Virus record (IMG/VR): IMGVR_UViG_3300031594_000010
Coordinates: 1-28,289 of that record
Direction: 5' to 3' (one strand)
Origin: a virus
Length of the DNA: 28,289 nt
This document shows positions 1 to 15,175 of the stretch, in pieces. The notes below the pieces were generated by a model. It had not been told where the DNA came from. It made no database searches and saw nothing but the letters and a program-made list of their open reading frames with translations. Both the position numbers and the translations under genes were made by a program. Position 1 is the first letter of the stretch. Each line of letters begins with the position of its first letter.

Positions 1-3000
1 TGGCTGTTGTTGAATTCGCAGTAAATGTAGCACCTGCGAAGGCTGAAGTACTTAATCCGAGCTGACCCCAGTTAGTAGTGCCAACCTCAGAGATTTTATA
101 AGTAGCCCCGTTTACGGGGTTAGCACCCTGTCCAACAGTAATTTCACCACTATTGTAGCTAAGATCATATGTATTCGTTAAGCTCTGCAAAGGGCCATAG
201 GTTGTACCTATAGTACCCAAATTCACTGGCGTAGAGCCGCCTGGTTGGCCCGGTGTGCTGTTTGTGTTTGTCGCTGGCCCGTTATACCAGACAAAGCCCA
301 CCCTTATCCCAAGATAAACTTGTAGTTGGTATAATTTTTCTTCAGCCTTTCTAACCCCATTCGACGCTATAACGGCGCCGGCAGGAGTTCTGATATCTTC
401 ATCTACGTCGTGATCATAGGCAGGTTGGGAGACCCCATTAACATCCACGTAGGCATCGTAATCGTCCCAGAAGTATGGTGTTCCGGCATTCGCCCAGTCA
501 TCTATAATTTGGGTATGCCTAGTAAGTTCGGCCTCCCAGAGAGCATAAGCGGCCACCGCTTCTGACGGAGTAATTTTTTCGTCATCAGCGAGATTATCTA
601 ACTGTCCGACAATGTTACCTATCGGCAGAGTGGTAATGGTATTATTACCAGTCTGAGACTCATAAGTACTTAAAGGGCTCAGGCTTATAGTTCCTGCTAC
701 TTCCAGACCGAAGCCATCCCATTTAACGAAGTTTTGTGCGCCTCCTAGATTGAGTCGGACGCCTACAGGAAACTGGTTCCCAGCATCGTCGAGGCCTATC
801 GCCGTTTGTGCGGCTGTAGTGGGGACATTCTGTAAAAAGAATCCGCTATCCGTATCTGCATAATAATTCTTTCCTGCAGTATGAAATATACCACTTAGGT
901 TAGAGGAAGAAGTTCCAAGTTTAATTTTATTGCCGACAACTAACTCGTTGGTCAGTACTGTATTTGCAGCAAGCCTGTTGCCGCTTAGTGTACCTGTTAC
1001 AATTACACTTCCGTCAAAAGTTTCTACGACTAAAGAGCTGAAGCTAGAAGCTTGAACAGACGCAGCACTAGTTACTGCACTTGTTCCAGCATAAATACGT
1101 GTACCTGCTATCTCGTTGGAATTATCCGTAACAGTTATTCTATCATTCTGGCGTAGAGTATTATCAGGTGAGGCGGCTATTACTGCACCTGCGACGGCCG
1201 CGGCGGCGGCGTTATCTAATGTCCCGGCCCATTTTGCTGCGCTTGTCGCATCAATCTGAGCTGTACTAGACGTTTCGAAAGTAAAGATACTACCCCCACG
1301 AACTGCACTTGCATCTAGTGATTTAGTAAGGTTGAATTCAAATACAGCAGTTGGTATAGCAGGAGGATTGGTGTCAAGTGCATGTCCTATACTGTTATCA
1401 AAAACGTCAATCTGAAAAGAGACTTGATTAACAGCCGGGTTGGTAAGAAAGCTACCACTACCACTTGCTGCACTAATAGTAATTTTACCATTACTCTGGT
1501 CAAGTACGGGCAACACACTAGCTTGACCACCTACAGCTGCCGGCAATATACTATCAAAACCAGGACCTAGACTAAACCCATCAGTGGCGGTGGATTGCGG
1601 CTTATATACGAGTACATCAGTTCCGTCAAAAACTCTAATAAAAGAAGAAAAACTAGCTACGTCTGTTATAGCCCCGGTAGCGTCTGCGGCAAAGTTATGG
1701 GTTCCATTTGTAGGTGTATAGGTCTGCCCATCTGCACCAATACTTCCATTTATAACAGTTCTTACACCTGCAAAACTAATAGAAGCTGTGTTGGAAGTAA
1801 AAATTTGTTGATTCGACAGCCCTGAATTTATAGTATCTGTGAAACTGACATCTAGAGTTTGGGGTAAATTAGCTAATGTACCAGAAGCCTGACCCCTACC
1901 TCCGCTATTTTGAAGTGCCTCCGTTGGAGGTGAATATATGTAAGTGTCTGACGAGCCAGTTTGTCCACTTCCTGGATATGACAGGGCAGTCCCACTTGCA
2001 TCCTTCAAAACCCAGGTATACTCTACATTGGCTTCGTCGCTTATATTTACAGGCAGTGCAGTTACTGTCGTCTGACCGGTAGCAGGGTTTGTAACCCTGC
2101 TTGTAGCTGTATTATATTGAAATAACGTTGTACCTGCACTAACACTAACTAATCTATTTGTATTCATTCCAAGAGCTAGACCTGGCACACCCGCTAAATT
2201 ACTTCGAGGCTCATATACAGATGCTACATTAATGAAGCGACTACCTGCTCTATTTGAAGGGGTTTTTACTTGATATCTTATCCAATAGTATCTTAGAGTA
2301 GGGTCAGTACTTTCATTTTCTGTATAAGAGTCCCGAAATTCTTCTACTCTACAGCTACCTATACGCTTAGCACGATCTGCCTCAACTATCGTAGTATTAT
2401 TTGCGTTAAACGGAGCAGGAGCCCCCAAGAAATTAATACTATTACCGCGCCATATTTCAATCTCATGTGTAGTCTCTGAAAAAGCGTCTGTGTTATTCCA
2501 AACCAATATTATTTCGCCTAATTGAACCTGGGAAGCTGCCAGGTTGGTAGGAGGATTTGGCCGACCAAGTGGTGGAGTGTTAGGATCGGGCGCTATACCA
2601 TAGCCTCCGCCTTCTGCTACTATGACATACGCACTATCATCATGCTCAGATGCGGTAATATCTACTAATCCATCGTTTTTAAAATTAATATTAGTTATGC
2701 GAAAGCTTTTGTTTGTATAACCAAAGCGCGGGTATGTAATGTCTATTATATTACCTGAAAGAAGTAGTAAACCTCTTGGAGCCATAGTAAACTGTATCTC
2801 TAAACCGTACCTAGATTCATCTAAAAATTGCTTTATATTGAACCTAGCATTAAAATAATTAGTAACTCCAGGTAAGGAATACTGAGCTTTCTTTTGTATG
2901 CCTTTATCTTCTTTTAAATAATCAGAGTTAAAGAAAGAAACAGTTCTAGCTTGGAAGCCATTAGCAGGGTCTAATATAGAAGCAGTGACATAATTTTTGC

Positions 3001-6000
3001 TATTTTTTAAACCTTTATCTGCTAGTTTAATAGTACCTATTATGTCATCTTCACTGATTCGTTCCGGGTCGACTAAAGTCGGTTTTTTACTTTTAATGTC
3101 AAGCTCATACTTACCTACAGAATACCGAAGCATTCCATTGAACTGTTTCAACATCTTATTGATATTGGAAAATATAGGACTTTGAGTATCAACGATTTGA
3201 TTCATCTGGTGTCGAGTAACGTTTCTTTGCTCACTGCTGTCCCAGCCTAAATACTTCCAATATTTTACATCATCAGAATCATATATGCCATATCCAGAAG
3301 CAGAAAAGTTTGATGCTCTAGAATCCCATTTTTTAACTATTGGATTACCATTTGCTGAGTATACATTATCTTTTGATATACCATAGACTTTACTGCCCCC
3401 CACTTGTCTAAGGTACACAGTAGATGTATATTTGTTCCCGTCTTGTGGGTTGGGCGTTGTTGTAATCACACCTGCTGAAGACGCTCTATAGAAACATTTA
3501 TCATACCAATAGAACTCACCGGCTTGAAAATATTTCCAGTTATTCCATTTTGTAGCAACTTTCCCCACGCAGTCTGTAAAAGTTACTTGTTTCCAGTTAA
3601 AAGGTCCGGTTGTGCCAAAGGCGCTGCCTAGCTCGGCGTCTGTTTCTACCCTACTTACAGTACCACGAAATTGGTTAATAGTAGTTGAGCCGGAGGAAGT
3701 AGACATCTCGTAAGTTTCGCCAACATTAATATTAGCACCAGGAGTAATTAGAACAGTAACCTCCGATCGAGTATCGCATTCTCTTGCAGCAGAAAGAAAA
3801 GAGGATACGTCGATATCCTTATCAATGTCTAGCCCTTTACCATATCTCTCATTTGTAAGGTAGTCAAGCAGTTGCATAGCAGGATTAATAGTAACACGTT
3901 TATCTCCGATTGAGCCGATAGTAAACTTGTCTCCAAGTGCAGGCATAAAATTATAAGCCCAAGGCTCATCAACCATTGCTACCCCGTAAGTATTATCATA
4001 GCTTATAATAGTTCTTTCTTGTTTAAAAACACCTCCTCCGCTTATAGCGTGCTGAAGAGTTACTTTTTTACCGACATAGAAGTTGGCAACGGCTTGGTTG
4101 GCGGCGCCATTTAACGCTATCGCATTTTTAATATAAAGACCTGTAATATTATTCGCAGTTCCGTAACTAGCAGAATAAGGTAAAGGAATATTATCTATGG
4201 TTTGCGTGCTTGTGTTAAAAGAAAACCCTGCGTAAGAGGGTGCAGCAGCAGAAATATCAGCAGCATTATACATACCTATTATTACACCAGGCTGATTTAG
4301 AGCGTACCGCTCGGGGGTGTTGCCTGTGCCGCTCACAACCAGTTTCGTACCAATACCATTTGAACTTTGTACAAACTGAGAGGCTACCATACCTGTGATA
4401 ACAAGAGCTTCGGCTACAATTGTTGATGTTTCTGCTGCATCCCATGTTTGCATATGCCACCTAGCATTATTACTTTTTTTCATATAAAAATTTGTAATAG
4501 GTGTGGTACCGTCCAGAAGGATGGATGGCGAGAGACGAGGAGATAGTCTAAATCTATAGTCAATATCGCCATTGATATCAAAAGTAGACCACTTATCTAC
4601 AATAGTAAAAGTACTTCCTATTGCTCCATTACCTGAAGTTTTATGTAAAGTAACAGAATCATTTAAGTTAAATTGAGTGTGGATAGCATTTGTCAGATTG
4701 GACTCAGTAGATTGCTTATAGCTGCCATCATAGTTATAGCATTCGGGGTTCCGTCCTCGCACTACGTAACTCATTGAAGGCAGGCTTGTTTCACCTTCCT
4801 TAATTACATATTTTCCTGCTACATATGCAGTATCGAGTACCTGATGACTAGGTCCCCAGTATAGTTCTTTACCGGCATAATAGATAGGGTCTTGAGTTGT
4901 AAAGTTTGAATCGCTAGGATTGTTAGCAATCTCTACTAAAGTATTATCTGCTTTTTGATTGGCTTTCCCCGCGTGGAAGGTAATATGTACGTTCATAGGG
5001 TCAATAAAACTATGAGTACGTTCATGTAATATTCCAGTAGCATTCCCAGTTTCTGAGTCACTAGCTCCCGTGGGAGTAGTTTGAAATACAGTCTTTGTAA
5101 AACTATCAGAATTAAAGGGCGCGTTTGGCCCGAGAGTGGTTTCAATAGTAACCCCGTTATAGTCAAACTGTGTAACGTTACCTGTTGCACTATCGTAGGA
5201 ATTTAAAGTATCTCCTCGATCTTGCCTGCCAAAACACTGTAGCTCTACAGCGTCAGATTCAACAGAACGCAAATCAAAATCCAGTTTATTTACACAAATT
5301 GTAGTAGTATCGTCAATCAAAATATCAAATATAGATGCGATTGGGCCTTCACAGAGTGCGTCTGCTTTATAAACTATAGATGCATCGCTTTTATCAGTGT
5401 CTACAAATATAGGAAAAGAGTCAATTTTACGAACACCGTATACTACAGGTAGCATTTTTGCTTGAGGATTAAAACGTAGGTCTACTTCGCGAGTTTCATC
5501 TTCTGTATATTCTTGAAGATCGTCACCTCTAGCGGTTCTGATTTTATCAACTTTTACATTGTAAGTAGCCAGAACATTGATTGCGCGGTTTGCGTGTAAA
5601 AATCCTAAATCGCTAGCATATGCAGGCCTAAGAACAGAGGCTATGTCTACTGTATTATCTGGTTGAAGAGCTCGGTGCTCCTCATCATCTGTTAAACGCC
5701 CTTGTACTCGTAAAAAATCACCCCAATGACTAGAAAGTGTCCATTTTATTTGTGAAGAGTTAGGTTTTTCTACAATCGAGCAACCGCTTGTTATACCTTT
5801 AAAGTATACGTAAGGTGTCCCTATTATTACATTTTCGGAGTTAAGGTGTGCTCTATATATAAAAACTTCTCGGTTTATATAATTAGTATAAGTTCCTCCA
5901 GTTTTATCGGCTATAAGTATGTTTAATTCTTCTGCAGCTAAAGCTATCGTATAGTTTTTCGCTGTAGCTACCGCGGTCATTCCATTTATATCAGTAAAAG

Positions 6001-6553
6001 TAATACTTTTACCTTCGTCCGTAAAACTTTCAATACGAATATACTTTCCGGCATTGTCATGGGTCTGTAGGTCTAATGCTAGGTTGCCTGTGCTTCCTGT
6101 TTTGTTAAGGAATATTTTATCGCCTTCTTGAAAACCTAGTTCAGATAAGTTGGTAGTAGTTACCATCTTTCCATTTACGCTTGTAAAAGTAGCAGCAACA
6201 TCAACTATAGTTCCTAAACTGGAAGCATCTAAAGTCATAGAAAGATTAGAAGCTCTTGCTTGTATATTTTCGTTAACCGTACCTAAGTTGACGAGTTTAT
6301 TTGCTCTATAAATATTACCATCTGTACCTGTAGGTGTAAGAGGGTTTCCATCTAAATCTACAGCGCCATCATCATATACAATATCGAAGGGAGCATCTGT
6401 TATAAAAGTGTAATCACTATCTACACCTTTAATAAGGGCACCAACTATATCAGGGTTTTGAGGTTTCTCAAACCTAATTAAATGAACCACTCTAAAAGGG
6501 TCATAGTTCATAAGTGAAGTTACTAAATCCGGGTGAATTGCGCGTGTTGCCAT
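1..6553 (-). CDS. J-like tail-tip / central fibre protein, partial (runs off left edge)
   Basis: The frame opens at the ATG at 6553 and stays in phase to base 1, giving at least 2184 residues with no stop in the stretches I translated. The start overlaps the preceding stop by one base (TAATG). Residues 1 to about 150 look like the hub domain of a lambda L-type tail-tip protein. The middle has J-family signatures: NPAMQLLDYLTNERYGKG near residue 888 and AARECDTRSEVTV near 920. A fibronectin-III-like segment begins near residue 1325 (PPTNLAAS, then EIILVWNN). The last part is a Gly/Ser/Thr/Ala-rich beta region, including FDGSVIVTGTLSGNRLAANT, ending in NWGQLGLSTSAFAGATFTAN, a phrase common in phage fibre proteins. 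By family knowledge it caps the tail and makes the central fibre that meets the host receptor. The C-terminus lies outside the window. Confidence 0.88.
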   Translation of the reverse strand, partial: MATRAIHPDLVTSLMNYDPFRVVHLIRFEKPQNPDIVGALIKGVDSDYTFITDAPFDIVYDDGAVDLDGNPLTPTGTDGNIYRANKLVNLGTVNENIQARASNLSMTLDASSLGTIVDVAATFTSVNGKMVTTTNLSELGFQEGDKIFLNKTGSTGNLALDLQTHDNAGKYIRIESFTDEGKSITFTDINGMTAVATAKNYTIALAAEELNILIADKTGGTYTNYINREVFIYRAHLNSENVIIGTPYVYFKGITSGCSIVEKPNSSQIKWTLSSHWGDFLRVQGRLTDDEEHRALQPDNTVDIASVLRPAYASDLGFLHANRAINVLATYNVKVDKIRTARGDDLQEYTEDETREVDLRFNPQAKMLPVVYGVRKIDSFPIFVDTDKSDASIVYKADALCEGPIASIFDILIDDTTTICVNKLDFDLRSVESDAVELQCFGRQDRGDTLNSYDSATGNVTQFDYNGVTIETTLGPNAPFNSDSFTKTVFQTTPTGASDSETGNATGILHERTHSFIDPMNVHITFHAGKANQKADNTLVEIANNPSDSNFTTQDPIYYAGKELYWGPSHQVLDTAYVAGKYVIKEGETSLPSMSYVVRGRNPECYNYDGSYKQSTESNLTNAIHTQFNLNDSVTLHKTSGNGAIGSTFTIVDKWSTFDINGDIDYRFRLSPRLSPSILLDGTTPITNFYMKKSNNARWHMQTWDAAETSTIVAEALVITGMVASQFVQSSNGIGTKLVVSGTGNTPERYALNQPGVIIGMYNAADISAAAPSYAGFSFNTSTQTIDNIPLPYSASYGTANNITGLYIKNAIALNGAANQAVANFYVGKKVTLQHAISGGGVFKQERTIISYDNTYGVAMVDEPWAYNFMPALGDKFTIGSIGDKRVTINPAMQLLDYLTNERYGKGLDIDKDIDVSSFLSAARECDTRSEVTVLITPGANINVGETYEMSTSSGSTTINQFRGTVSRVETDAELGSAFGTTGPFNWKQVTFTDCVGKVATKWNNWKYFQAGEFYWYDKCFYRASSAGVITTTPNPQDGNKYTSTVYLRQVGGSKVYGISKDNVYSANGNPIVKKWDSRASNFSASGYGIYDSDDVKYWKYLGWDSSEQRNVTRHQMNQIVDTQSPIFSNINKMLKQFNGMLRYSVGKYELDIKSKKPTLVDPERISEDDIIGTIKLADKGLKNSKNYVTASILDPANGFQARTVSFFNSDYLKEDKGIQKKAQYSLPGVTNYFNARFNIKQFLDESRYGLEIQFTMAPRGLLLLSGNIIDITYPRFGYTNKSFRITNINFKNDGLVDITASEHDDSAYVIVAEGGGYGIAPDPNTPPLGRPNPPTNLAASQVQLGEIILVWNNTDAFSETTHEIEIWRGNSINFLGAPAPFNANNTTIVEADRAKRIGSCRVEEFRDSYTENESTDPTLRYYWIRYQVKTPSNRAGSRFINVASVYEPRSNLAGVPGLALGMNTNRLVSVSAGTTLFQYNTATSRVTNPATGQTTVTALPVNISDEANVEYTWVLKDASGTALSYPGSGQTGSSDTYIYSPPTEALQNSGGRGQASGTLANLPQTLDVSFTDTINSGLSNQQIFTSNTASISFAGVRTVINGSIGADGQTYTPTNGTHNFAADATGAITDVASFSSFIRVFDGTDVLVYKPQSTATDGFSLGPGFDSILPAAVGGQASVLPVLDQSNGKITISAASGSGSFLTNPAVNQVSFQIDVFDNSIGHALDTNPPAIPTAVFEFNLTKSLDASAVRGGSIFTFETSSTAQIDATSAAKWAGTLDNAAAAAVAGAVIAASPDNTLRQNDRITVTDNSNEIAGTRIYAGTSAVTSAASVQASSFSSLVVETFDGSVIVTGTLSGNRLAANTVLTNELVVGNKIKLGTSSSNLSGIFHTAGKNYYADTDSGFFLQNVPTTAAQTAIGLDDAGNQFPVGVRLNLGGAQNFVKWDGFGLEVAGTISLSPLSTYESQTGNNTITTLPIGNIVGQLDNLADDEKITPSEAVAAYALWEAELTRHTQIIDDWANAGTPYFWDDYDAYVDVNGVSQPAYDHDVDEDIRTPAGAVIASNGVRKAEEKLYQLQVYLGIRVGFVWYNGPATNTNSTPGQPGGSTPVNLGTIGTTYGPLQSLTNTYDLSYNSGEITVGQGANPVNGATYKISEVGTTNWGQLGLSTSAFAGATFTANSTTA

Positions 6554-7323
6554 TATCGTAGAGCCTCTTCTAGCTTCAGTGAAAAACTGTATAAATTATT
6601 TGTATTTAAGCTATACTCTACTAGATCGCTAGCAAATATAACTCTGAATTTGGGGTCGTGAAAATTAATAACAGAGCTGACTGTTAAAGTTCTGGTAAGT
6701 GGTGGATTAAAATGTAATAATTGCTGAGTTGCTATAGGGTTAGCTGCACCTGAAAGGTGAGTACCATCAACTTCTACTCGAGTTATTTGATATACTTTTG
6801 TGTGTCGAACATCCCCTCCGTCTGTTATGGTAAAAATATCTCCCGGCTTTGCCGTGCCATTCGCACTTGAGCTATAACCTGGTCGTGATACTATTATAGT
6901 TGTTTGACCTGCTATCCCGTTGGTTGCCGTGCTCGCGGCGGTAAACTGATTTGAAGCTGCATAGGCTGCAAAAGTAGGGTCACGAGGTACTCTATATTGA
7001 GGCAATGAAACAAAAAAGGGTTGTAAACTTCCTTTTTGTTGCATTATAAAAGAATTTACAGGCTCAAACTCCTCGCGAGTCATAGGATTGTAAGAAATAT
7101 CTATATTCCATTTATGCCCCGACAAAGACCTACTTATCAGCCTTCCAGAATTAGTACGAGTATTTAGAAGTGGCTGCTCAGAAGCTAGCTTCACAGAAGC
7201 ATATCCAGGTCCATAAACTCCAGTGTTGACAACGGTACCACTGGAGTTGAGGGAGCCTCCAGCCTCTACAAACGTATTATTGGGGTCTGGTAAAACATTC
7301 TGAAATATGTCAAAGTCTGCCAT
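6553..7323 (-). CDS. Distal tail / minor tail protein between tape measure and J
   Basis: This 256-residue protein lies between the tape measure gene and the J-like gene and overlaps each by a single base (TAATG at both ends), so the three are probably translationally coupled. The position matches lambda M or distal tail proteins, which join the tube to the tip. The sequence is soluble and beta-rich, with a phrase FEPVNSFIMQQKGSLQPFFV typical of minor tail proteins that contact the tube end, and a central Gly/Ser/Thr-rich stretch. No signal peptide or membrane segment is seen. Lambda-type phages usually have several small genes (M, L, K, I) here. This phage has only one, so it and the enlarged N-terminus of the J-like protein may share those roles. 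The name rests mainly on position. Confidence 0.72.
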   Translation of the reverse strand: MADFDIFQNVLPDPNNTFVEAGGSLNSSGTVVNTGVYGPGYASVKLASEQPLLNTRTNSGRLISRSLSGHKWNIDISYNPMTREEFEPVNSFIMQQKGSLQPFFVSLPQYRVPRDPTFAAYAASNQFTAASTATNGIAGQTTIIVSRPGYSSSANGTAKPGDIFTITDGGDVRHTKVYQITRVEVDGTHLSGAANPIATQQLLHFNPPLTRTLTVSSVINFHDPKFRVIFASDLVEYSLNTNNLYSFSLKLEEALR

Positions 7324-10300
7324 TAGTATGATTTATCCTGTACGCCTTCTAAGAACATTTGTCCATGTTCGTTTGCGGCCTCTCGTAACATTGCGATTAT
7401 ATTACCTCTCTGATTCATTAATAAGTCTTCTACACCTGATGCATCTACTGCACTAATTGAGAAGTTTACGTTCGTCATTCCACCTGTTTCTTTTCCAGAA
7501 GGTATAATATTTCCGGCAGTTTCTGGCATAAATACTTCTGGACCTTGCTCACCAACCAGGTAGCCTCCTGCAGCACGACCTTTATATCCAGAGAATGCTG
7601 AGGTGGGTTTAAAGTCGTCCATACCTGTACCGATTCCTGAATCTCCTCGTGCGTATGCCAGCTCTCCTCCAGCATTATTAGCATTCGCTAAGTCTACAGT
7701 ATTGCTTCGTGAGCCTACCTCTAATGTAGAAGGGGCGGTAGGTGTTGATCCTCCTGCACTTCCTCCTCCTTGATACGACGTGCCGGCAATTATAGCAAGT
7801 TGTGCCGCACCCACTGCAGCCATAGCTGCACCCGTAGCAATACCAAAAGGAAGACCGCCAGCATTTGCAATACTTTGTATAACTGCAGAAGCCGTTGATA
7901 GTATTGTTTGAGCCATTTGTGCTTTTTTGTTTATTTCAAAAGCTTTCTTCTTTTCTTTCTCTTTCTTCTTATCTAAAGCGGAAAGCTTAGCTAAACTTGC
8001 TGCAGATTTTCCATCACGTTTTTGTTCTGCAGCAATTTCTTGGTCAATACTTGTAATTTTCTGTTGACTATTTGCTGCTAACATGCTGCTTATAGCTCCT
8101 ATGGTTGCTGAAGAGGCTTCCAGGCCTGCAGCAAGTCTATCTCCTCCAGAAGCAGCGCTATCACCAATTATTTCAAATGCAGTGCTCCAGGCACCCGTTG
8201 CAGCAGCGGCTCCGCTTGTTACAGCATTAAGTAGTAAACCTTCAGGCCCCATCAAATCCATCATAGGCTGTAGTGCATTTATAGTACCTGCTACCTTGTC
8301 TCCTATACTGGACAATTCTTGGTCTGGGTCAAGTGCTCCTCCAGCTCCAAACAAACCGGATATACGCTCGCCTTGCGAGCCACTATTGGAAGTGCTGGCA
8401 TCTAGAGTTGCTCTGCTTTTAACAACTCCTTCAGTTTCTATATTGTCCTTAGCAACAACTCCTGTAGTTATTGCGGCTGCAGTCGCTCCATTTCGTGCTT
8501 GTTCCTGCAAGCCTGCTAGTTTTTCAAAAATCTTTAACTCTTCGGCACTTGCGCCTGTCCTTGCTGCTTTTGCTTTCTCCAAAGCCAGTTGTGCGCCTAG
8601 TAAATCCCACTGTAATTTGATAGTTTCTACCTTTGCTTTAGTTTCCTGTGTTATCATATCCAGGCGGGCTTGTTTATTTTCATTGAACGATTTCATTTCG
8701 TCCTGTGAAGAGGTATCGAACCTATTTGTTGCAGCTTTTCGCTTAAGAGCATTTTGTTGTAGTGCTATACTCGCAGCTAACATAGCTTTTCTAGAGTTGA
8801 GCTCTTTATTTACTAATGTATTTATAAGCATTTGCTGTTTAACGTCAGCAACTTTCACAGAGGCAGCTATTTGTGCAGTTCCAAGCCTTTCTGCTTCAAT
8901 AGCCTTAAGCTCTTGCTGTAATTGCAATAGTTTTTCTTGATCTAGAACGCTTATACCAGATAGGTCTATAAGATTAATTTCTTCTTGCACAGCATTTTTT
9001 CTAGAGTCTACTATCTGATTATGCATATCTAGAGCTCTTTGCATAATTAGAGGGTTATCTTTTGATATTGCATTTAATTTTTTAAACTCTATCTGCTGCT
9101 GTTTAATTAGTGCCTTAGCAGTGATTAGAGTATCGCGGCTTTTTTCAAGTTGTTTAACGCTGAGCATCAGTACCCCTGCGTCACCGAGTAGAGATTTTGG
9201 CAAGCCCCCTGGCAGTGTGTCAGGCAGAACTGATCTCATTGCGTCTATAGTGTCTTGAAAACCTATGGCATTATTTTTGAAGGCCTGAATAGCTTGGCCT
9301 CCTGCAGCAGCTGCATTATTAAATTCTATTGATAATAACTTGAGATTCTCAATAATAGGGTCATACGGTGTACTTTTTCTTGCTCCAAGTTTATTAACCG
9401 AAGCTTGAAAATCTGCCATAACAGTTTGAGCACCCATGATAGACTCTATGATAGATTTATTATTTCCCATGAAGCCGTCGAAAAATTCTTGAAAGCCAGT
9501 ATTAGTCTTAAATCTATAGCTATCCTCCTCTAGTAGCTTCAGTTCTTTTGTCAGTAGTGCTATCTGAGGTGTTAACTCTTTTTTAAGCTTTGGTGCCATT
9601 GCATTCATTGAAGCTAAAGCGTCTTGTATAAATATTTTAGCAGCAGCTTTGTTTAATTCCTCGATACCTGTGTTCAAGGAATCTACTTTCGATTCTGCTC
9701 CTGTCACGGCGCTATCAAAAGCTTTACCCCTGGCATCTAGTGTGGCAGTACCACGACCTGCACCCAAGGCTCCTGAATTTACTCCGCCCTGCCCCGACTT
9801 GGTTTCACTCTCTCTTTTTGCTCGGTTTGCTGCGTCTAAATCCTCTTGAGCTTTTATTCTATCCTCTCTACTTGCTTCTCTTACTGCCGCTGTATACTTT
9901 TTCCATCCGTCTATTAGTTGGTCAATTATGCCTACTTTAGCCTTTAAAGTAGCTACAAAAGCGTCTGCCTTCGAGTCTGTCTTTTTTAAAGTATCCTCTA
10001 ATTGGTCTGAAATAGATACAAAACTCTCAAATGAATCTGTAATGCCGGTAAGTGTTTTTTCAAGTTCACTATCTCCGAAAAGTTTCTTAAATACGGGTAT
10101 TAGTAAAGAAGCTACAAATAGTACTTGACCGATTACAGGTATGGCATTTAGTAGTGCTGTACCAAACAAAACTACAGCACCTCTAGCGGCTGTAGCCCCT
10201 ATTACAACTTTAGCCCACAGGCTTCCATTCACTCTTCCTACTGTTTTCATTTGAAGAGCTGTGCCTGTAAGAGCCACTCTAAACTTAGCTAAAACACCAT

Positions 10301-11657
10301 TTGCTGCTTCCATACGGTTCAGAGCCGCAGATGTTATTGTAGAAGACCTACTTCGACCTGCAGCTATAACACCTTTATTTGTTATTACTGATTTTGTTTT
10401 TTCGGCTTCTTGAAGTTTTTGTACTGCTACAATTTGTTTTCGAATTATGTCAAGATTGTCTTGTCTAGCTTTTTTAACCTCCCCTAATCCTGCCGCAGTT
10501 TGTTTAACTCTTATTGCTTCCGAAGCCTTTAAACTTTTTAATACTTTTGCCTGCTCGTTAATACTTAAAGTACCAGACTTAATTTTAGTAGTAAGATTCT
10601 GAATACCTTTAGGAATTATTGTCAATTCCTTACTAACTTTAGTCGCAGCGTCTGTATACGCCTTACTTACAACTTTAGATGCTTTTTTGGCAGTAGCTCC
10701 TGCTGCGGTAGCAGATCTCGAAAAAGACTCAGACATTTGACCAATAGCAGGTAGTATGGTTTTTAATATTGTGGAGCCAAATAAGAACAGTACACCCGTT
10801 AAAGCTGTGGGGTTAGCACCTAAAAAAGACACTAAAGGAGTTAGTACAGTATTGATAAGATTTAAACCAGTTTTAGAGAGGTTAGTAAAAGCTGCAGCAA
10901 GCTGGTCATACGCATTGGGGTCTAAAGTTTCTGCAATATCCCCGAATTTTTTCAAACCTTGTTCTGTAGTTGCATTTAGAAATGCTTGTCGTCGTTCAAA
11001 CTGAGTAAGCTGGTCACCTGTCTTACCTATAGTAACTGCATAAGCATCTACCGCATCATCAAGACGCACCATGATGCCCAATTCGTCCAGAATTTCTGGT
11101 TCTAATTTTGCAGTACCTTTTACCAGTCTTGTAAGTGCATCTTCCATATCTCTACCGAGAGCTTGAGAAGCGCCTTTAGCTACTTTAGTTAAATCTTCTA
11201 GTTGGGTTGAGGAAAAGCCTGAGCTAAAAGCCAAGGCTGTGGACGACATAGCAGCTTCCATCGAAATGGCTGCTCCTGTAATATCTCGAATATTTTCAGC
11301 AACATAGGTAAGGTTTGCACCTGCAGCATTACCTACTCTGATCAAGCCTTCTTCTAGTTGTTGAGTAGCGGCAGCACGTCTAAGAGCTCCGAAAGCTGCT
11401 GTTAGTGCGAATATATTAGCCGCTAGAACTGCATAAGCAGGAACAAGGCCGCCTGTAATACCTGTAGACATTTTAGAAAATGCTTTTGTACTATTAGAGG
11501 TTGCACCGGCCGCACCTTTAGCTACTTTATTATAGCGATCAGCAGAGTTACTAGCATTATTTAAGCCAGCAGCAGCTTTATCAGCATGTTTACCAACAGC
11601 CTGTAGACTGCCGTCTTCCAGAACCTTAAACTTAACTGTAACTGTATCTGTTGCCAC
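7323..11657 (-). CDS. Tail tape measure protein
   Basis: This 1444-residue protein is the largest complete one in the window and sits directly after the G/T chaperone pair, the standard place for a tape measure. It is rich in Ala, Lys, Gln and Ser with long predicted helices. Hydrophobic segments occur near residues 70-95, 285-310 and 490-525 (including AIPVIGQVLFVASLLIPVF), and a Gly/Ala-rich one near 1250-1290, as usual in proteins that enter the host membrane during DNA ejection. The C-terminus has a Gly-rich part and the phrase AAGGYLVGEQGPEVFMPE, recurrent at tape measure ends. At roughly 0.15 nm per residue, the known rule for this family, the tail would be a little over 200 nm long. 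The start lies two bases after the T stop codon. Long plus-strand frames inside it are shadows. Confidence 0.95.
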   Translation of the reverse strand: MATDTVTVKFKVLEDGSLQAVGKHADKAAAGLNNASNSADRYNKVAKGAAGATSNSTKAFSKMSTGITGGLVPAYAVLAANIFALTAAFGALRRAAATQQLEEGLIRVGNAAGANLTYVAENIRDITGAAISMEAAMSSTALAFSSGFSSTQLEDLTKVAKGASQALGRDMEDALTRLVKGTAKLEPEILDELGIMVRLDDAVDAYAVTIGKTGDQLTQFERRQAFLNATTEQGLKKFGDIAETLDPNAYDQLAAAFTNLSKTGLNLINTVLTPLVSFLGANPTALTGVLFLFGSTILKTILPAIGQMSESFSRSATAAGATAKKASKVVSKAYTDAATKVSKELTIIPKGIQNLTTKIKSGTLSINEQAKVLKSLKASEAIRVKQTAAGLGEVKKARQDNLDIIRKQIVAVQKLQEAEKTKSVITNKGVIAAGRSRSSTITSAALNRMEAANGVLAKFRVALTGTALQMKTVGRVNGSLWAKVVIGATAARGAVVLFGTALLNAIPVIGQVLFVASLLIPVFKKLFGDSELEKTLTGITDSFESFVSISDQLEDTLKKTDSKADAFVATLKAKVGIIDQLIDGWKKYTAAVREASREDRIKAQEDLDAANRAKRESETKSGQGGVNSGALGAGRGTATLDARGKAFDSAVTGAESKVDSLNTGIEELNKAAAKIFIQDALASMNAMAPKLKKELTPQIALLTKELKLLEEDSYRFKTNTGFQEFFDGFMGNNKSIIESIMGAQTVMADFQASVNKLGARKSTPYDPIIENLKLLSIEFNNAAAAGGQAIQAFKNNAIGFQDTIDAMRSVLPDTLPGGLPKSLLGDAGVLMLSVKQLEKSRDTLITAKALIKQQQIEFKKLNAISKDNPLIMQRALDMHNQIVDSRKNAVQEEINLIDLSGISVLDQEKLLQLQQELKAIEAERLGTAQIAASVKVADVKQQMLINTLVNKELNSRKAMLAASIALQQNALKRKAATNRFDTSSQDEMKSFNENKQARLDMITQETKAKVETIKLQWDLLGAQLALEKAKAARTGASAEELKIFEKLAGLQEQARNGATAAAITTGVVAKDNIETEGVVKSRATLDASTSNSGSQGERISGLFGAGGALDPDQELSSIGDKVAGTINALQPMMDLMGPEGLLLNAVTSGAAAATGAWSTAFEIIGDSAASGGDRLAAGLEASSATIGAISSMLAANSQQKITSIDQEIAAEQKRDGKSAASLAKLSALDKKKEKEKKKAFEINKKAQMAQTILSTASAVIQSIANAGGLPFGIATGAAMAAVGAAQLAIIAGTSYQGGGSAGGSTPTAPSTLEVGSRSNTVDLANANNAGGELAYARGDSGIGTGMDDFKPTSAFSGYKGRAAGGYLVGEQGPEVFMPETAGNIIPSGKETGGMTNVNFSISAVDASGVEDLLMNQRGNIIAMLREAANEHGQMFLEGVQDKSY

Positions 11658-11659
11658 TA

Positions 11660-12019
11660 TTACTTTCTCTTTAGCTTATCCCTTTCTCGTTTTAATTGTT
11701 CTTGAGATTGGTTAATAGCCCTTGATTCTAAATAAGTTAGAATCTCTAAAAATAGTTCTGTATCCTCTATTCCATGCATTTCTATATAAAAAGGTAGCGT
11801 TGTAAAGTCTTTTCCCATGTATCCGATATCAGGATAAACTCTGTCACCTAGTGCACTAAAAGTGTTTAGTGCTAAAATGGCTAAGGCGGGAAAATCCTCT
11901 ATATCAGGAGGTATTTCTTCTTCAACCGGTTCCTTTTCCATCTGTTCACACATCTTAAAATAACGCTCTCGCGTCATCTTAGAATCACTATTTTTGAAGA
12001 ACCTTTCCAGGCGCTCCAA
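11660..12019 (-). CDS. Tail assembly chaperone, T-like part (frameshift product or TTG start)
   Basis: This 119-codon frame overlaps the end of the G-like gene by 32 bases and ends two bases before the tape measure gene, the arrangement of lambda G and T. In lambda-type phages the T part is made only as a G-T fusion through ribosomal slippage, and the fusion recruits tube protein to the tape measure. Here T lies in the +1 (equivalently -2) frame relative to G. The only initiation codon near the overlap is TTG at 12019, preceded five bases upstream by a perfect AAGGAGG at 12031-12025, so independent initiation is also possible. The product is charged, with an acidic middle (PVEEEIPPDIEDFPALAILA) and a Lys/Arg-rich C-terminus. 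If slippage occurs at the G stop, about 110 residues of this frame would be fused to G, giving about 260 residues. Confidence 0.75.
   Translation of the reverse strand: MERLERFFKNSDSKMTRERYFKMCEQMEKEPVEEEIPPDIEDFPALAILALNTFSALGDRVYPDIGYMGKDFTTLPFYIEMHGIEDTELFLEILTYLESRAINQSQEQLKRERDKLKRK
11988..11996 (-). other. Candidate ribosomal slip site CAAAAATAG at the end of the G-like gene
   Basis: In the G frame the message ends CAA AAA TAG. A lysine tRNA on the last AAA can move back two bases and pair with another perfect AAA. The next codon is then AAT in the T frame, so slippage bypasses the stop and reads on. A +1 step (AAA to AAT) reaches the same frame with poorer pairing. A GGAAAGG run lies just upstream, and a perfect AAGGAGG about 28 bases upstream. 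Phage Mu is the known precedent for a -2 shift in these genes, while lambda uses -1. Confidence 0.5.
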
Positions 12020-12440
12020 CAGCTCCTCCTTTTGGCTTGCTACGAAAGTTATCTAGATCAAAGACTACCTCATTGAGCCAACCGTCGAATTCAGAAGAAG
12101 AACTTACTAAAACCTCGGCATTATCTAGTGAATATTCTAATTCTTTCGCAGGGTCTTGTCCATCAATATCTATGAGAATCAAAGTCTCTAAGTGGGTAAG
12201 TGTTAAACCTTTCCAGTTTTTAACTACTCCTTTAGTAAATTCTACTACAAATTTATCTTCGTCTAATGTATCTACTGCTTGACGCGTCTTGCGGTCAAAC
12301 TTTGTAGTAGTACACTTCTTACGAAGTCCTGTCAGTTCTTTACGAGACAAGTTTGCTATCTCGACTTCGAATCCTGGTAGTCCAGGAAAGTCAACCCAAA
12401 CTGCTTTGGTATCGACCATTAGTGTTTTTAAATCCATCAT
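11988..12440 (-). CDS. Tail assembly chaperone, G-like part
   Basis: This 150-residue soluble protein sits immediately before the overlapping T-like frame and the tape measure, the position of lambda gpG. In that family G and the G-T fusion coat the tape measure and bring tube subunits to it, and are absent from the finished virion. The start is one of two adjacent ATG codons (12440 or 12437), preceded by AAGGA. The N-terminal part reads AVWVDFPGLPGFEVEIANLS, a strand-rich opening often seen in such chaperones that act on tube proteins. The last residues (KPKGGAVGAPGKVLQK) form a flexible Lys/Gly linker encoded where the two frames overlap, as expected if part of the product is extended into T. 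The gene follows the lectin-containing tube gene by 11 bases. Confidence 0.8.
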   Translation of the reverse strand: MMDLKTLMVDTKAVWVDFPGLPGFEVEIANLSRKELTGLRKKCTTTKFDRKTRQAVDTLDEDKFVVEFTKGVVKNWKGLTLTHLETLILIDIDGQDPAKELEYSLDNAEVLVSSSSEFDGWLNEVVFDLDNFRSKPKGGAVGAPGKVLQK

Positions 12441-14056: not shown

Positions 14057-15175
14057 TTAAGCACCTATATACTTGACCGTAAGTTCGTCCGCGGCTGTAA
14101 TATTTGTTCCTAGAGCGGAGAAAGATACCTCTAAAGCAATAATATCATCAATGGAGTGCGTGGGCACTTCTAAGTGACATTGAGACATATTAAGTTCTAT
14201 ACGAGGAGTACCTGAACTACCTCCGACTTTAAAACCAAGAGTAAAAGAGTTAGTAATTGTACTAGTTCCTTCAATAATATTTTCAAACAAGTCCATGCTT
14301 CCTAAAGCAGTGTTATCTAAATAACAACTAAAACTTCCGCCAACGGTGCGCGTACCTGTAACTGCTTCTAAAGGTTGGTTAACTACTCCTATAGTTTCTG
14401 GAGTGACGAATGAAATATTATTACTAATAGTAACATTACCACCTGTTAGCGTTAAACCATAATTAGTAGATGTAGGCGATGTGGATACTGCAGTAAGCTG
14501 CGTTAAGCGGTTACGAATAAAATTAGTTGTACTAGTAATTCCTTCATACCTAGTTCTAACAGGTGCTGAAGCTTCTTCACTAATAATTGTACCCATTCCA
14601 GACCAGTTGATTGTAGTAATACCATCAATATCAAAGTCCATAGATGCTTCATTTACAGCACAATTTGCAATTTTATAAACAGTTGTATCAGTCTTAAAGT
14701 ATATATTCGCTTTTGCTAGCTCAGTTAGGTTTGAATTGGCAAAGGTAATATCCATATCAGTACCATCTGCAGTAATACCTGTTGACCAAGCAGCATTAGT
14801 ACTAGCAGCAGGGTTGGTATACGTAGCATTGGTAGCAAGCATAGCCCACAAAGGCTCTTCTACACAGTGTTGAAAAAGAGCATCGTCTACTCTACCACCA
14901 GTTTCACCTGTTCCAGCTGATTTAAAAGGTCTTGCATAAGTAGAAAAACTCCACTCTGCCGGTGCGTAAGAGTCTGTGAACATTTTACGTCCTCGACGAC
15001 TAGAATTGGCTGCACCAGACATTTCGTTAAGTACTACTTCGCTTGTGTTTGTACCTTGTGAAAATGAAAAACCGTCTAGAACGGGTATCTCCCATATTGC
15101 GTCTGCATCCTCTGTTCCATTTGCTGCTAAGTATGCGATATAAACTTTCGTTTCGCGACTAAAAAATAAAGCCAT
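14057..15175 (-). CDS. Major tail tube protein
   Basis: This 372-residue protein has no membrane segment or signal peptide and is rich in Thr, Ser, Asn and Gly, typical of tube subunits of long non-contractile tails. It opens with a strand (RETKVYIAYLA), then LDGFSFSQGTNTSEVVLNE and a loop with the basic patch SSRRGRKM, which could line or contact the lumen. It lies between the tail terminator gene and its lectin-bearing paralogue, upstream of the G/T chaperones and tape measure, as expected for the tube protein. It is preceded by a strong AGGAG. A 63-base gap separates it from the upstream gene and holds only a weak GAGC-AAAA-GCTC hairpin. Which of the two tube proteins forms the bulk of the tail is inferred: this one, because it lacks the insertion. 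Confidence 0.82.
   Translation of the reverse strand: MALFFSRETKVYIAYLAANGTEDADAIWEIPVLDGFSFSQGTNTSEVVLNEMSGAANSSRRGRKMFTDSYAPAEWSFSTYARPFKSAGTGETGGRVDDALFQHCVEEPLWAMLATNATYTNPAASTNAAWSTGITADGTDMDITFANSNLTELAKANIYFKTDTTVYKIANCAVNEASMDFDIDGITTINWSGMGTIISEEASAPVRTRYEGITSTTNFIRNRLTQLTAVSTSPTSTNYGLTLTGGNVTISNNISFVTPETIGVVNQPLEAVTGTRTVGGSFSCYLDNTALGSMDLFENIIEGTSTITNSFTLGFKVGGSSGTPRIELNMSQCHLEVPTHSIDDIIALEVSFSALGTNITAADELTVKYIGA

Follow-up and report, generated by a model that had tools for sequence, protein, structure and literature searches.

In phage lambda, the tail chaperones G and GT are encoded by two ORFs that lie between the tail tube and tape measure genes, and T is made as an extension of G by a -1 frameshift; the tape measure protein is the binding partner of the G domain, and T brings in the tail tube protein. 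A survey by Xu et al. in 2004 reportedly covered tail chaperone pairs analogous to lambda G/GT. The tail chaperones of phages Mu (PMC5009743, PMC3498833) and 9g (PMC4276943) are described as using a -2 shift. Shifts in the +1 direction at UUU_CGN are best known from influenza and plant viruses; they are described at UCC_UUU_CGU in influenza A PA-X and at UUU_CGN in amalgaviruses (PMC3498833, PMC5052127), to which Firth et al. added a predicted wider class of UUU_C sites (PMC3498833). In regard to the HF1 group of haloviruses, a +1 shift at TTT-CGC was proposed for the same gene pair on the basis of six genomes. We checked HF2 and confirmed both the frame and the site (AAG TTT CGC AGA TAG).

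The window analysed here is the whole stretch of DNA, 28,289 bases, of IMG/VR virus record IMGVR_UViG_3300031594_000010, from a marine relative of phage T5. Its minus strand encodes, in order, the major tail protein, a baseplate-tube-like protein, G, T, and the tape measure protein, and the G/T pair is placed between the tail tube and tape measure genes, as in lambda. G matched phrog_313 and T matched phrog_3914, both of which are tail assembly chaperone families; the roles of G and G-T as chaperones are proposed from this homology and from the lambda precedent. The Pfam TAC_5 match to the chaperone was under the cut-off. In the PDB fold search, no hit reached an E of 0.001, and the match to the HK97 chaperone 2ob9 was weak (E 1.8); the PDB sequence search gave no meaningful match, and the nucleotide search of phages and the NCBIfam search each gave zero matches. 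An ORF of at least 2184 aa (2..6553, minus strand) continues past the left end of the window. The features discussed below are listed in Table 1.

Table 1. Positions of the tail genes, the slip site, and neighbouring features in the window.
Feature	Position	Strand	Remarks
Major tail (tube) protein	14057..15175	-	upstream of G; phrog_3575
G	11988..12440	-	150 aa; ends CAA AAA TAG
G domain common to both products	12045..12440	-	132 codons, the slip Phe being the last; phrog_313; model confident to about residue 130
T-frame TAG	12053..12055	-	upstream bound of the possible shift region
Slip site AAC TTT CGT	12042..12050	-	about 55 bases upstream of the site proposed in the preliminary description
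P-site Phe codon TTT	12047..12045	-	would re-pair on TTC (12046..12044)
G-only tail RSKPKGGAVGAPGKVLQK	11988..12044	-	from non-shifting ribosomes; sequence and length variable
T part of the predicted G-T fusion after +1	11660..12043	-	127 codons and stop; starts V-A-S-Q-K; phrog_3914
AAGGAGG (12031..12025), 5-nt spacer, TTG (12019..12017)	12017..12031	-	candidate start of free T, this virus only
Hairpin over the T-frame ATG of K-M-T-R-E-R	11957..11980	-	ATG in the 5' arm
Tape measure protein	7323..11657	-	downstream of T; phrog_3779

Searches of IMG/VR proteins gave 80 relatives of G and 40 of T. A protein search of a phage collection matched G in 886 records, mainly from Vibrio and enteric hosts; the records opened, 18 of the 886 and several of them close relatives of each other, were all T5-like (Demerecviridae) phages. 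Further searches, among which those with PM135 G and with A1 (genome contigs) made few additions, brought the collection to 400 loci, the same contigs often being retrieved repeatedly. Loci L024, L161, and L274 lack a G stop and were left out, and identical junctions among the remaining 397 were merged to give 243 distinct junctions. This set includes six MAG contigs from various bacterial groups (L317-L322) that bear the phage chaperone gene and are likely phage contigs binned with bacteria.

The T frame of the window is reached from G by +1 or -2, and its open stretch takes in the last 65 nt of G, which agrees with the preliminary description in placing T outside the common -1 frame. T lay in the same +1/-2 frame in all of the first 82 distinct junctions. 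Across the full set, T overlapped G in another frame and was open across the slip in the +1 frame in 185 of the 243 junctions and in the -1 frame in 54; in the other 4, the T frame was cut off by contig ends. TTT_C was found in 185/185 junctions with T in +1, in 0/54 with T in -1, and in all 4 of the truncated ones, which is a perfect partition between the two groups. When the relatives were aligned on the G stop, AAC/AAT/ACT TTT CGN stood out just downstream of the T-frame stop. In the first set, the Phe codon was TTT in 88/88 distinct G genes and was followed by CGT in 76, CGC in 9, CGA in 2, and CAC in 1; the T frame opened 5 nt ahead of the TTT in 52 of the 88. In the larger set, CGN occupied the A site in 188/189 junctions, the single exception, TTT CAC, having retained TTT_C. 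The re-pairing check at this TTT allowed a +1 slip only, with none at -2. Across the whole window, 27 copies of TTT_C were seen against 27.5 expected, giving no sign of its avoidance elsewhere in the window.

Substitutions mapped on the G tree revealed strong constraint at the site. There were no TTT/TTC changes at the slip codon (TTT in 189/189), compared with 15-34 at seven other Phe columns, and no CGN/AGR changes at the next codon (CGN in 188/188), compared with 21-26 at four other Arg columns. The coding of Phe and Arg does not account for the invariance of TTT and CGN; a Phe tRNA that re-pairs on TTC does. Arg in G and Val/Ala in T place a further constraint on the CG of CGN. The diversities at G codon positions 1, 2, and 3 were 0.19, 0.15, and 0.44 upstream of the site, 0.61, 0.55, and 0.39 in the overlap past it, and 0.57, 0.41, and 0.38 farther downstream, mostly in T alone. 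Directly past the site, the most variable base is thus no longer the third one of the G codon but the third one of the T codon, which indicates that from there onward the DNA varies as T-frame DNA. The T alignment of the marine group was gap-free from F-V onward.

A frameshift that joins the two tail chaperones is most likely, and +1 was among the options of the preliminary description. We regard it as very probable, from the sequence comparisons, that G and T are joined by a +1 slip at TTT_CGT, yielding G and a G-T fusion. The majority of ribosomes would complete G. In a minority, the Phe-tRNA paired to TTT in the P site, with the A site still at CGT, would move forward by one base and re-pair on TTC; the shifted ribosome would read GTA next and go on through T to 11660, producing a G-T fusion of 259 aa. 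This predicted fusion matched phrog_313 end to end (1.3e-18 vs 5.1e-15 for G alone). A fusion built at the junction of the preliminary description matched phrog_313 nearly equally (66.1 vs 68.6 bits for the +1 fusion), so that the match supports a fusion and not the position of its junction. The AlphaFold model of G was confident to about residue 130, whereas residues 135-150 had a pLDDT under 50, which suggests that the folded G domain ends at the slip position. The G tail past the slip is 6 to 30 residues long in the relatives.

We searched for stimulators near the slip site. In dinucleotide shuffles of a sample of 40, the stretch just past the +1 site gave a mean z of 0.06, and 0/40 fell under -2. 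The synonymous-codon test on the +1 group gave -1.24 compared with -0.93 and -0.25 for control stretches, which is no clear support for a structure there. The efficiency of the shift, itself a prediction, may be low in the +1 group, where neither an adjacent structure nor any other of the known +1 stimulators turned up. Farther downstream, the hairpin over the T-frame ATG of K-M-T-R-E-R gave a mean z of -3.10 against synonymous-codon shuffles in the MTRER-type subset (45/54 under -2), the comparison being with the same control stretches of the wider +1 group. This hairpin perhaps masks an internal start.

The 54 distinct junctions with T in -1 (L301-L305, L310, L311, and loci of a later search) form a sister clade with homologous G and T, and all of them carry AAT TTT ACN at the same Phe codon. 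The heptamer was A_AAT_TTT in 50 of the 54 and T_AAT_TTT in 4; A_AAT_TTT in an open -1 overlap was absent from all 185 junctions with T in +1. The tree showed no AAT changes at the site in the -1 clade, compared with 5-10 at other Asn columns. The slip direction changed once on the G tree of 243 rows, which is unrooted and does not give the polarity of the change; on an unrooted 50-row tree, the -1 group formed one side of a branch with an SH-aLRT of 96. A hairpin, CAAGTA...TACTTG, begins about seven nt past the heptamer. Its mean z in dinucleotide shuffles was -2.98 (28/40 of the sample under -2), and the synonymous-codon test gave -3.29 compared with -1.27 and -1.81 for the clade's own control stretches. 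The alignment of this hairpin covered 31 of 41 distinct stretches, and its 3' arm stood at two different places among the members. The -1 direction, A_AAT_TTT, and the conserved downstream stem distinguish the clade from the group of the window, which would slip at the same Phe codon; the canonical -1 heptamer X_XXY_YYZ does not describe the window's own group, with T in +1.

The site recurs in T5-like phages. TTT CGT or CGA with T in +1 was found in 18/18 T5-like genomes read, including T5, Sugarland, and Shivani. CGT is the last sense codon of G in My1 and 234P1 (TCC TTT CGT TAA in My1), where the T frame is open over no more than the final 14 nt of G; these short overlaps confine the slip to a few codons. 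DU_PP_V also has TCC TTT CGT. E. coli uses CGU frequently, at 20.2 per 1000 (PMC3498833), and a starved A site therefore cannot explain the T5 site.

Three other explanations were weighed against a +1 slip at TTT_CGT. The first is that ribosomes start T by internal initiation, either on the TTG that follows AAGGAGG or on the ATG farther downstream, and that no shift is programmed. The AAGGAGG does lie 5 nt ahead of an in-frame TTG of the T frame, as the preliminary description had noted, and T is listed as a separate gene in 17 of the 18 T5-like records, only Shivani joining G and T. However, a strong Shine-Dalgarno sequence with a T-frame start inside the overlap occurred in 4/184 distinct junctions, two of which are near-copies of the window, and an ATG with even a loose one occurred in 5/184. 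TTG itself was present at that codon in 4/184, and 13/184 had no ATG, GTG, or TTG anywhere between the slip and a point 60 nt beyond the G stop. AAGGAGG occurs five times on the minus strand of the window. Internal initiation would also leave unexplained the invariant TTT_C and the T-frame conservation upstream of the TTG, and we consider it improbable as the source of T. The proposal of a free T starting at the TTG stands as a possibility for this one virus, in which internal initiation may add some free T, but it does not describe a feature of the family.

Still less probable is that TTT_C is invariant for some other reason, such as a protein constraint, a nascent peptide, or an RNA signal, and that the shift takes place elsewhere, for example by +1 on AAA_G at 12032. 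Re-pairing from AAA to AAG is possible there, and AAAG is in frame in 124/191 overlaps. However, AAAG is not universal, whereas TTT_C is found in 184/191 and the remaining 7 have T in -1; the G genes of My1 and 234P1 stop immediately past CGT, and Phe coding cannot give the wobble invariance at TTT.

The third explanation is that of the preliminary description, in which the shift takes place within 11988-12031, at the G stop. G does end CAA AAA TAG, and the frame fits; a Lys-tRNA on AAA at 11993 is able to re-pair perfectly on AAA two bases back in this virus, and +1 on CAA was the other option, with the stop and AAGGAGG as proposed aids to either. This AAA is the only codon in the window that re-pairs two bases back, and the Mu-like -2 reading did not hold in the relatives, AAAAA before the stop being kept in 8/184 distinct +1 junctions. 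TAG was the G stop in 39/184 distinct junctions, the position of the G stop varies widely, and the features described there drift when the relatives are aligned at it. AAGGAGG-aided slippage was likewise rejected as the main mechanism since it was not conserved among the 184 junctions. The conserved site at 12042..12050 falls just outside the proposed region. Because T conservation and the codon-position pattern start about 55 nt upstream, at TTT_C, and a fusion made at the stop would omit the conserved T segment FVxxQKxxxxxRLE, a slip at the G stop is the most improbable of the three.

A +1 slip at TTT_CGT would set this locus apart from lambda in its direction, in its UUU_CGN site, and in that no adjacent stimulatory structure was found. 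The -2 shifts of Mu and 9g reach the same frame, but -2 re-pairing is impossible at the conserved site here. The site resembles those of PA-X and amalgaviruses in its P-site UUU, the next base C, the CGN in the A site, and the +1 frame, and differs in belonging to a bacteriophage, bacterial ribosomes, and structural chaperone genes. The E-site UCC of influenza is not typical here, the codon before TTT being mostly AAC or AAT (AAC 132, AAT 36, and TCC 2 of 189). The HF1-group haloviruses have the same motif, gene pair, and +1 frame but are archaeal myoviruses, and BLASTP gave no similarity between HF2 G and the G analysed here.

It seems somewhat more probable than otherwise that UUU_CGN is an old +1 signal for bacterial ribosomes that acts without an adjacent RNA structure, is common to T5-like phages and to a large marine sister lineage, and is present in haloarchaeal viruses either through shared descent or independently. 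In one lineage, the same Phe codon would have become a -1 site when A_AAU_UUU and a hairpin were acquired as T moved frame, or the reverse, so that the direction could flip with the fusion point fixed. In the near relatives of the window, the hairpin over the T-frame ATG may restrict T to the fused product. The +1 motif of eukaryotic viruses, suggested for haloviruses, would thereby be extended to bacteriophages; the accessible text of the literature searched, which was mostly open-access, contained no report of such a UUU_CGN site in the chaperones of bacteriophages, T5-like or other. T5-like phages would offer an easy E. coli system for asking why CGN after UUU promotes +1 slippage, and for the evolution of frameshift direction, the -1 sister clade serves as a matched natural experiment.

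The Sugarland paper states that the chaperone, like that of T5, is without a predicted frameshift signal (PMC6256483). The conserved UUU_CGN would give T5-like phages such a signal, against that published statement for T5, a textbook phage (PMC6256483), and would correct the gene annotation, in which 1/18 T5-like records joins G and T. The word "frameshift" is absent from the Shivani genome paper. The joined chaperone of Shivani (KP143763.1, 93207..94038; L405) is annotated as 277 aa, which fits a -2 shift; +1 would give 276.
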